48,850 bases of DNA from Terriglobia bacterium (GTDB lineage Bacteria; Acidobacteriota; Terriglobia; Bryobacterales; Bryobacteraceae). The notes beneath the pieces are model-generated. The model made no database searches, was not told where the DNA came from, and saw only the letters and a list, made by a program, of their open reading frames with translations. Position 1 is the stretch's first letter, and the number at the start of each line of letters is the position of its first letter. Shown one piece after another: positions 21,611 to 24,580 of the stretch. The stretch is from contig JAJPIT010000027.1 in assembly GCA_021324615.1 (NCBI GenBank), forward strand, positions 1-48,850, written 5' to 3'. Both the position numbers and the translations under genes were made by a program.

Positions 21611-22561
21611 TTACAGGGCGGCGGCCTGGGGTGTTTCGACCGTCACCTTGGCCCGCAAATTGGCGACCCCGGCGGTGGGCCGCTCATCGGTGACGGTGAA
21701 GGCGATGGCGTCCTCCAGCCAATCGTGCGAGGAGCCGTCCGGATCGTGCGAGGCCAGCGTGATGGTGTAGGCATGCGGGCAGAGATCGCACAGAAAACGG
21801 AAAACCACGGTGACCGATTCGCCGGGCTGGCGCGGCCCGATCCTGACGCGCTCCAGTTCGGTGTTGGTGCCGTAGACCTCGAAGCCGATCTGGGTGCGGA
21901 TCAGCAGGCCGAGCACCGGATCGTCCACCGCCTCATGAAAGCGCACAGTGGCGCGGACGGTCATCATTTCGCCGCTCTTAAAAACGATGGTCGGCTGGCC
22001 GTTGGCGCCGATGGTTTCAATCGAGATCACTTCGGCGCGGCCGTCTCCGCGGCGCGCCGAGGGAACCAGGCGGGGCGAGATCGATTCGCCCCAGCTTCGA
22101 ATCCGCCCGGCGACAAAGCGGCGGTAGCGGTCGAGTGTTTCGCGGGGATCGCCCTTGGCGGCGATCCGGCCCTGGTCCAGCCACCAGACTTCGTCGCAGA
22201 GTGTTTCAAGCAGCCGGTCCTCGTGCGAGGCGATGAGGATGGTGCTGCCGGAGCGGCGCAGCCGGTCGAGCGCGGTCAGGGTGCGGGCGCGCACGATCGC
22301 GTCCTGCGCAGCCAAGGCCTGATCGAGCGCGACCACCGCCGCCGGCGCCAGGTTCAACGTGTCGCCGAGGGCGACATAGCGGCGCTCCGGCGGAGCGGCC
22401 ACTTCGCCCGAGGATGGCTGCGCCACGCCGCCGGCCAGCTTGAGCAGTTCCGACAGGCCGGAGTTTTTTTCTCCGATCACGCCCAGGATCGCACCCGCCG
22501 GAGCCACCGCCGTGAAGCCGGCCAGCGGGGCCGCATCGACATTACGAAATTCGATCGACAT
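21611..22561 (-). CDS. Degenerate ABC ATPase fused to Wzt-type C-terminal domain
   Basis: 316 residues. The N-terminal ~150 residues align by eye with the NBD of Wzt-type polysaccharide exporters, but the Walker A is GEKNSGLS (30-37): Leu36 replaces the essential Lys and Asn33 the first loop Gly. About 80 residues holding the Q-loop, helical domain and LSGGQ signature are missing. Walker B is VVALDQ, with Gln in place of the catalytic Glu, while the H-loop His113 (ILIASHE) remains. The C-terminal ~140 residues (from about 173) form a beta-sandwich like the Wzt glycan-binding domain. ATP hydrolysis is therefore unlikely. The role may be glycan binding or regulation of a full exporter elsewhere. 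Its ATG follows directly after the stop of the S9 peptidase (TAAATG), so the two are co-translated. Confidence 0.8.
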   Translation of the reverse strand: MSIEFRNVDAAPLAGFTAVAPAGAILGVIGEKNSGLSELLKLAGGVAQPSSGEVAAPPERRYVALGDTLNLAPAAVVALDQALAAQDAIVRARTLTALDRLRRSGSTILIASHEDRLLETLCDEVWWLDQGRIAAKGDPRETLDRYRRFVAGRIRSWGESISPRLVPSARRGDGRAEVISIETIGANGQPTIVFKSGEMMTVRATVRFHEAVDDPVLGLLIRTQIGFEVYGTNTELERVRIGPRQPGESVTVVFRFLCDLCPHAYTITLASHDPDGSSHDWLEDAIAFTVTDERPTAGVANLRAKVTVETPQAAAL

Positions 22562-24580
22562 TTAAGGTTTCTTCACCCACTCCCCGATCCATTCCAGGAA
22601 CTGGTTGTACCACAGCACGCTGTTTTGCGGCTTCAGCACCCAGTGTCCTTCGTCCGGAAACACCACGAGCTTGGAGGGCACTTTCTGCATTTGCAGTGCG
22701 GTGAACAGTTGTAATCCCTGGCCGAGCGGCACGCGGTAATCGAGCTCGCCGTGAAACACCAGCGTCGGAGTTTTGAAATTTTGGGCAAAGGAGCTGGGCG
22801 ACCATTTCGCGTACATTTCGGGATTTTCCCAGGGCATCCCCTTGAACTCCCAGAGCGGGAACCACAACTCCTCGGTGGCGCCGGCCATGCTTCGCAGATC
22901 GTAGACGCCATCGTGCGAGACCATCGCCTTGAAGCGCTGGGTGTGGCCGAGCATCCAGTCGATCATGTAGCCTCCGAAGGAGCCGCCGGCCGCGGCCATG
23001 CGCTCGGGATCGGCGTAGGGCAGCGCGGAAACGTGATCCACCACGGCCATGATGTCGTCGTAAACTTTTCCGCCCCAATCGCCGTTGATCTCGTCGATGA
23101 ACTTCTGGCCGTAGCCGGTCGAGCCGCGCGGGTTCGGCATCTCGACCAGATATCCGGCGGAGGCGAACACCTGCGCGTTCCAGCGATAGCTCCAGGTTTC
23201 TCCCCAGGCGCCCTGCGGTCCGCCATGAATCAGAAACAGCACCGGATATTTCCGCGACGGCGAAAAACCGGGCGGCTTCAGCTCAAAGGCGTGAACCCGC
23301 GTCTTATCCGGGCTTTCGACGGTAAATTCCTCAAGCGGGCCAAGCGAACTGGACAAAAGAATCGGATCGTTGAGGTGTGTCAGGGCGACGCCGCTTCCGC
23401 CCGCAGAGGAGGCGCGGAAAATTTCAGCGGGCCGCGATCCGCTTTCTTCGGTGTAGATCAAAAAACTGCCGTCGGAGTTGAACTGCACGTCGTCGAGGCT
23501 GGAATCGCCCGAGATGATATTGCGTATCCCGCCGCCGCCGGCGGAGATCATCTGCAAGCCGGTTCGCCCGCGATCCTCAACCGTAAAGAATAAGCGAGTC
23601 GAATCGGGCGACCAGGTCATGTTTTCCACCCAGCGGTCGAGAGAATCGGTAAGGCCGGTGATTTTGCCGGTCGCGCGCTCGCAAATCATCAGACGCCAGC
23701 GGTCGCTTTCATACCCGGCGCGCGCCTGCGAGCGGAAGGCGAGGTATTTTCCGTCGGGGGAGTAGACCGGGGTCAGGTCCGCGCCGGGGCTGGCGCTGAT
23801 TTTTTTGGCGTCCCCGCCAGTGATCGGCACGGTGTAGATATCGGAGTTGGTGCTGGTGGCGAGATTGGTGTCGGTGTTGGCGGCGAAGGCGACTTCGCTC
23901 GAATCGGGCGAGATGGCGTAATCGTCCGGGCCGCCCAGCGAAAACGGCGGCGTATCGCGCAGGCCGGGCGTCAGGTCGACGGCGTTTGCGCCATCGACGT
24001 CCACGGCCAGAATGTGGCGCCGGCGGCGGCTTTGCCATTCGTTCCAATGCCGGTAAAGCAGGGAGGTGTAGATTCGCGCCTTCACTTTACTTTCCGCATC
24101 GGCTTTGATCTGGCGCCGGTTGCAGGCGTCGTCGGCGCCGCATTCGGGATAAACATTGGACAGCAGAACGATTTTTTTGCCGTCCGGAGAGATCAGGATC
24201 CCGGAAGCCTCGCCCGCCAGATGGGTGATCTGCGCGGCATTGCCGCCGTCGGCGTCCATGCGCCAGACCTGGGAGGTGCCGTCACGATTGGAGACGTAAA
24301 AAATCCGCCGCGAATCGGGAGACCAGCGCGGGCGTTCGTTCAAGGTGCCGTCATGCGTGATCTGGCGCGGGAAACCGCCGTTGACGCCGACGACGAAAAC
24401 CTGCTTCGGCTTGGTGTTCTTTTCCAGATCGATGGTCTGCACCGTGAACGCCACCAGTCTGCCGTCCGGCGAAAGCTGCGGCTCGCTGATGCGTGAGAGC
24501 CGCATCAGCGCCGACACATCGAACGGCGGTTTCTGCGCCAGGACGCAGGCGGAAGCCAGCAGCGCCGGTAGAACGCGCAT
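22562..24580 (-). CDS. Exported S9-family prolyl-oligopeptidase / acylaminoacyl peptidase
   Basis: 672 residues with signal peptide MRVLPALLASACVLAQ. The N-terminal ~400 residues are a beta-propeller of TolB/WD40-like PD40 repeats (QLSPDGRLVAF, WSPDSRRIFY, ISPDGKKIVLLS). The C-terminal alpha/beta-hydrolase domain carries the triad Ser534 in GGSFGGYM, Asp614 in GELDYRVP and His646 in PDEGHWV. It should hydrolyse short peptides in the periplasm by removing N-terminal acyl-amino acids or dipeptides. A Cys pair occurs at ECGADDACN. It is the first gene of a two-gene unit with the ABC/Wzt-like protein and is divergent from the PEP-mutase-family gene. Confidence 0.92.
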   Translation of the reverse strand: MRVLPALLASACVLAQKPPFDVSALMRLSRISEPQLSPDGRLVAFTVQTIDLEKNTKPKQVFVVGVNGGFPRQITHDGTLNERPRWSPDSRRIFYVSNRDGTSQVWRMDADGGNAAQITHLAGEASGILISPDGKKIVLLSNVYPECGADDACNRRQIKADAESKVKARIYTSLLYRHWNEWQSRRRRHILAVDVDGANAVDLTPGLRDTPPFSLGGPDDYAISPDSSEVAFAANTDTNLATSTNSDIYTVPITGGDAKKISASPGADLTPVYSPDGKYLAFRSQARAGYESDRWRLMICERATGKITGLTDSLDRWVENMTWSPDSTRLFFTVEDRGRTGLQMISAGGGGIRNIISGDSSLDDVQFNSDGSFLIYTEESGSRPAEIFRASSAGGSGVALTHLNDPILLSSSLGPLEEFTVESPDKTRVHAFELKPPGFSPSRKYPVLFLIHGGPQGAWGETWSYRWNAQVFASAGYLVEMPNPRGSTGYGQKFIDEINGDWGGKVYDDIMAVVDHVSALPYADPERMAAAGGSFGGYMIDWMLGHTQRFKAMVSHDGVYDLRSMAGATEELWFPLWEFKGMPWENPEMYAKWSPSSFAQNFKTPTLVFHGELDYRVPLGQGLQLFTALQMQKVPSKLVVFPDEGHWVLKPQNSVLWYNQFLEWIGEWVKKP

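Follow-up and report, generated by a model that had tools for sequence, protein, structure and literature searches.

How Wzt proteins choose finished chains through their sugar-binding domain is an open question for O antigen-type ABC exporters. In Wzt of A. aeolicus, the cap pocket comprises Asn313, Leu300, Thr346, Ala348, His350 and Trp362, and three helices of the nucleotide-binding domain (NBD; residues 174-189, 201-207 and 226-240) face the sugar-binding domain, as described in the available text of PMC9445017. According to the introduction of that paper, a separately expressed carbohydrate-binding domain (CBD) restores transport by a CBD-truncated WzmWzt; the CBD works in trans, and the available text leaves the link from recognition to export unexplained.

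The window, by which we mean the whole analysed stretch of 48,850 nucleotides from a member of the Bryobacteraceae, contains a gene, here termed degWzt, the product of which has A. aeolicus Wzt (7k2t and 8dku) as its closest solved relative both by sequence and by fold. The original prediction had described an ABC/Wzt-like protein with a dead, shortened ATPase domain, and the kinship with Wzt is mirrored in the best matches of the predicted model. Local confidence in this model is good (mean pLDDT 84.1), the relative placement of its two domains being uncertain (pTM 0.56). The open reading frame starts with ATG and has zero internal stops (Table 1).

Table 1. Features of the degWzt gene and its product in the window.
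Feature	Position	Strand	Evidence
degWzt gene, 316 aa	22561..21611	minus	ATG at 22561, stop at 21611-21613; homologues
ATP-binding domain remnant, residues 1-160, without helical subdomain	22082..22561	minus	alignment, predicted model, dN/dS 0.043
Walker A relic GEKNSGLS, residues 30-37, Leu36 for Lys	22451..22474	minus	sequence comparison
Approximate site of about 62 absent residues, around residues 64-73	22343..22372	minus	Walker A-B spacing 43 versus 105
Walker B relic, residues 76-81, Asp80-Gln81	22319..22336	minus	sequence comparison
Predicted helix 88-103, at place of A. aeolicus elongated helix 174-189	22253..22300	minus	model and alignment
Predicted helix 115-121, at place of A. aeolicus H-loop helix 201-207, H113 just before	22199..22219	minus	model and alignment
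Predicted helix 139-160, at place of A. aeolicus hinge helix 226-240, aromatic 146 inside	22082..22147	minus	model and alignment
Wzt_C glycan-binding domain (PF14524), residues 169-301	21659..22057	minus	E 1.9e-33, above cut-off; fold match 8dky

As first read from the letters, Leu occupies the place of the Walker A Lys (G30-E-K-N-S-G-L36-S37) and Gln81 stands in the Walker B motif (D80-Q81) where the catalytic Glu would be expected, while the H-loop (S112-H113) and a full Wzt-type C-terminal domain are present. The segment with the Q-loop and the LSGGQ signature is indeed absent, but it amounts to about 62 residues and not 80: the Walker A Ser and the Walker B Asp lie 43 residues apart in the window protein versus 105 in every full-length row (n = 58), comprising 31 WztB (an intact Wzt encoded in the same genomes), 26 other Acidobacteriota Wzt and one WztC. 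What has been lost is the helical subdomain, and therefore the Q-loop and signature; the N-terminal residues are partly absent as well, and ABC_tran scores 13.3 bits, below the cut-off of 25. The idea that the missing segment is encoded upstream or in another frame was discarded, since the reading frame does not extend beyond the ATG on its upstream side and the segment is missing from relatives as well. With the Walker A Lys, the Walker B Glu and the helical subdomain gone, the window protein is, judging from its sequence, without a working ATPase site.

A contig scan returned 27 loci, 23 of which carried a near-full-length homologue, all of them shortened. These homologues in other genomes covered at least residues 9-306, with identities of 46-95%, and 23 of 23 lacked the same segment; none restored it. 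Using a profile of the 23 rows with an author-set cut (E <1e-77, placed between 8.6e-78 for the weakest degWzt inspected and 2.7e-76 for the best-scoring of the other matches), we found degWzt in 145 of 237 Bryobacteraceae genomes and 52 of 76 genera. A sample of 396 genomes across the phylum Acidobacteriota gave three matches at 1e-60, all from the window's genus; the sample seems poor in other Bryobacteraceae and is hence informative on other families only. Altogether 99 degWzt were inspected, namely the window protein, the 23 loci of the contig scan and 75 of 80 further loci (the five left out being four full-length Wzt and one duplicate), and removal of two more duplicates left 97 rows for comparison. 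One contig titled as a Bordetella parapertussis MAG (L013) carries the degWzt of the own-genus genome G191 and is probably a mislabelled record.

The helical subdomain is absent from all degWzt compared and the median Walker A-B spacing is 43, while the remaining motifs are eroded to different degrees. The Walker A Lys is present in 27 and absent in 70 of the 97 rows, and the tree requires at least 11 changes of this state; loss of the Lys is not universal in the family. The H-loop His is retained in 76 of 97 rows. Only one row has a Walker B Glu, and this row is eroded and without a recognisable Walker B; likewise, the one signature-like match lies in the Walker A helix, and there is no true signature in the 97 rows. 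A complete recognisable ATPase site was found in none of the 97. Some genera also lack the Walker A loop and the Walker B strand, and the ten most eroded rows are without the Walker A region, and therefore part of the remnant appears dispensable. Whole-gene dN/dS ranged from 0.038 to 0.161 in ten close degWzt pairs, and comparison of the window gene with its 95%-identical relative L008 gave 0.083 for the whole gene and 0.043 for the ATPase remnant (the border of the remnant, set at 160 residues, lies inside Wzt_C in the two pairs with the strongest erosion). By these substitution ratios degWzt is under purifying selection, and the early view of an intact, maintained gene holds.

The Wzt_C fold of the window protein superimposes on 8dky with an rmsd of 1.5 over 125 columns, and its pocket residues are N233, T268, A270, H272 and W281. 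Across the 97 degWzt, the Asn313 place is N in 96, the Thr346 place T in 97, the Ala348 place A in 94, the His350 place H in 94 and the Trp362 place W in 97, so that the five side-chain places match A. aeolicus, whereas the other Wzt compared vary there. The Leu300 place holds Met or Leu, the Arg302 place is R in 97/97, V299 is found in 97/97 and the C-terminal segment is conserved. The three helices predicted in the window protein (Table 1) are also kept in the more eroded relative L029 (59-74, 86-92 and 110-127), although the letters of the docking side chains named for the A. aeolicus helices are not conserved in degWzt. Chain numbering in the A. aeolicus Wzt structure alignment runs one ahead of that in the available text of PMC9445017; an equation of Tyr146 with Tyr233 was dropped, because this offset puts Tyr233 at Arg147. 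The sugar-contacting Tyr233 of the hinge helix thus has no Tyr counterpart in the window protein, and a Tyr at this place is uncommon in WztB and other Wzt too. Residue 146 itself is aromatic in all degWzt, and 58 of 58 full-length Wzt have Tyr there. A CxxC motif (C258/C261) and a Trp pair (126, 127) are near-invariant in degWzt and not found as such in WztB. Taken together, degWzt retains the putative cap pocket and the predicted helices on which Wzt_C would dock. Because the pocket is conserved, degWzt likely binds caps, and retention of pocket and domain supports the repurposing as a glycan reader that had been envisaged.

In a tree of 155 rows, made without the Walker A region (quick search, midpoint root), the 97 degWzt formed one clade (SH-aLRT 100, stem 1.41) and the 31 WztB another (SH-aLRT 97), and the two grouped together with SH-aLRT 95, apart from one WztC and the 26 Wzt that come from other families. 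In this phylogeny WztB is the sister clade of degWzt. Lys and Glu are present in all 31 WztB and the 26 other Acidobacteriota Wzt, and all catalytic letters in 31/31 WztB. WztB resembles degWzt in the shared C-terminal segment and most pocket letters, but differs in its 105-residue spacing, its full catalytic letters, the lack of the CxxC motif and a Gln at the His350 place (31/31), where degWzt has His; the glycan of WztB may therefore differ. WztB (contig C118) and WztC (C46) each stand alone in the window genome. Two long genes upstream of WztB (L128:8822-16001, C118) resemble phage-tail-type proteins by eye.

We saw no Wzm-like gene beside degWzt in the window, the PF01061 matches of its own genome lying on other contigs, and none beside WztB or WztC in this genome. 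Its permeases Wzm1 (C13) and Wzm2 (C6) are encoded away from any Wzt gene, and a third on C31 (L205:5337-6933) adjoins a complete ABC ATPase without Wzt_C; the C31 exporter would either work on uncapped chains or depend on a cap reader encoded at another place. Wzm2 (L210:6363-7505, C6) has an N-terminal extension of about 115 residues before ABC2_membrane, without a Pfam match, which is possibly a docking part; its relatives are mostly open frames of at least 380 aa, most Wzm1 having about 270-300.

Among 107 genomes that were at least 95% complete and at most 5% contaminated, 71 had both degWzt and WztB, 5 degWzt only, 8 WztB only and 23 neither, WztB presence being defined by author-set cuts (E <1e-130, or two matches <1e-90 in genus g8). 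In 80 genomes drawn from this set, the corresponding numbers were 47, 5, 8 and 20; degWzt and Wzm2 occurred together in 49, with 3 having degWzt only, 9 Wzm2 only and 19 neither, and WztB and Wzm2 occurred together in 54, singly in 1 and 4, and not at all in 21. Wzm1 is near-universal (76/80). In genera g1 and g10, degWzt, WztB and Wzm2 are jointly missing from some genomes, and an independent-pairs test in which Wzm1 took the place of a species tree agreed in direction, with 2.6 same and 0.0 opposite of 6 pairs, but with so few pairs fell far short of significance (median p 0.25). WztB and Wzm2 are both absent from seven of the 102 genomes in which degWzt was read and the partners were tested. 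Four of these seven (G189, G192, G078 and G079) have an altered pocket versus 0 of the 95 others (Fisher p 8e-6, a value that ignores kinship, the four altered pockets representing two lineages); the three partner-less genomes with an intact pocket, G193, G176 and G053, are 94, 65 and 79% complete. Because the genes are unlinked, the Wzm2-WztB-degWzt pairing rests on co-occurrence, which makes a partnership of degWzt with Wzm2 and WztB plausible. The original prediction did not include the graded erosion, the kept pocket and docking helices, the permease that co-occurs with degWzt or its full-length sister Wzt.

In the window, an S9 peptidase gene (22562-24580, minus strand) ends with a TAA directly preceding the degWzt ATG. 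The predicted TAAATG junction is thus real but local: direct abutment occurs in the window and L008 among 97 loci, L011 being similar with a short gap. A peptidase homologue was present in the flanks of 13 of 18 own-genus-type loci versus 3 of 79 others (26-32% identity there), and the conserved peptidase-ABC pair for which a survey had been suggested did not emerge beyond the own-genus-type loci. Because many loci lie close to the end of a contig, such neighbour counts are minimum values. More widespread is a gene for a beta-helix protein (PF13229), found in the flanks of 61/97 degWzt loci and in some cases encoding an apparent lipoprotein signal. Own-genus-type loci have the order S9 peptidase, beta-helix protein, degWzt, except that the window and L008 have no beta-helix gene between the two, so that peptidase and degWzt adjoin; elsewhere the beta-helix gene mostly lies upstream, adjoining degWzt in divergent (head-to-head) orientation. 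A single query, the L009 protein, run without a positive control, found no beta-helix homologue in the window genome, and the idea of an obligatory partner was set aside on this result. A TANNNT element ends 6-9 nt before the start of 72 of 96 degWzt genes versus 5.1 expected (maximum 13 in 200 shuffles) and is absent in the window and L008. This -10-like element suggests that degWzt mRNAs may be leaderless.

The reading that we favour, and to which we give about an even chance, is that degWzt acts as an ATP-independent cap reader of a cytoplasmic lipid-linked surface polysaccharide, working in trans with Wzm2 and WztB. Following duplication of an ancestral Bryobacteraceae Wzt, the WztB copy would have stayed a full ATPase, and the other would have lost the helical subdomain and the catalytic Glu first, the Walker A Lys later in many lineages, and in some also the Walker A loop and Walker B strand, while selection would have kept Wzt_C with its cap pocket and the docking helices. 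Present-day degWzt might bind the capped glycan as a Wzt_C dimer and pass or present it in trans to the Wzm2/WztB exporter. Weighing against this reading are the three partner-less genomes with an intact pocket, the nine genomes that have Wzm2 but no degWzt, the Arg at the Tyr233 place, the unconserved docking side chains and the uncertain domain placement. More tentatively, and with somewhat less confidence, we propose an O antigen-type ABC exporter built from a reader (degWzt), a motor (WztB) and a pore (Wzm2), each with a gene of its own, in which Wzt was duplicated and one copy kept of its motor just the surface that seats the reader. Such a layout suggests that recognition and energy use are divided between proteins in exporters of this kind. 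On this analogy, degWzt looks like a natural form of the separate-CBD arrangement that keeps the part of the ATPase that seats the reader.

Of the competing explanations, decay or an assembly artefact, which the lost catalytic motifs and graded erosion might bring to mind, has practically no probability left: purifying selection (dN/dS 0.04-0.16), invariant Wzt_C residues and a frame that is open in dozens of independent genomes contradict it. We also consider it improbable that degWzt is a regulator in which ATP, bound without being hydrolysed, controls cap binding; although 27/97 rows keep the Walker A Lys and 76/97 the H-loop His, the Lys is absent from the window and 70/97 rows, having changed state at least 11 times on the tree, and there is no partner signature motif.

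Two other possibilities are less easily set aside, while we regard each as unlikely. As a negative regulator or decoy, degWzt would pair with WztB via a swapped Wzt_C strand, or compete for caps, and thereby lower or time export. This would agree with the Wzt_C and C-terminal segment common to both proteins, with their co-occurrence, with the inability of degWzt to power export and with the lowering of ATPase activity by O antigen binding described in the available text of PMC9445017; yet the His350 place differs between the two (His versus Gln), a pure decoy would not need the ATPase-side helices, and 5 of 76 degWzt-positive genomes in the 107-genome set lack WztB. Similarly doubtful is a role unrelated to export, as a cap sensor or adaptor acting, for instance, in chain termination or in signalling with the beta-helix protein. 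The beta-helix gene near degWzt in 61/97 loci and the seven degWzt genomes with neither WztB nor Wzm2 speak for such a role, but the L009 query (no positive control) found no beta-helix homologue in the window genome, and the pocket changes are confined to genomes without transporter partners.

A natural family in which the motor was discarded while the reader survived shows what such a reader requires, and its graded erosion series amounts to a set of natural deletion mutants. If our reading of degWzt as a cap reader is true, a widespread soil lineage would offer a clear example of an ABC ATPase domain that has lost its helical subdomain and persists as a scaffold. A search of the open-licence literature found no publication on such a motorless Wzt protein, which is weak evidence of absence. 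That evolution tolerates a degenerate ATP site, as in degWzt, is known from heterodimeric ABC exporters with one degenerate site, but unlike degWzt such exporters as a rule retain a whole NBD fold, helical subdomain included. The NBDs of TagH/TarH (7dd0, 6jbh) share with degWzt the NBD fold of polysaccharide exporters, but are complete ATPases without Wzt_C. Isolated Wzt CBDs acting in trans (the construct in the available text of PMC9445017; 8dky, 6o14, 2r5o) are, like degWzt, cap-binding units apart from a working ATPase; these are laboratory constructs without an ATPase remnant, whereas degWzt is a natural gene that retains part of it. Wzt of the A. aeolicus WzmWzt exporter (7k2t, 8dku) has Wzt_C, the pocket letters and the three docking helices in the same order as degWzt. 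In contrast, degWzt is devoid of the helical subdomain, Q-loop, signature and catalytic Glu, in most cases also of the Walker A Lys, and has no Wzm gene beside it.
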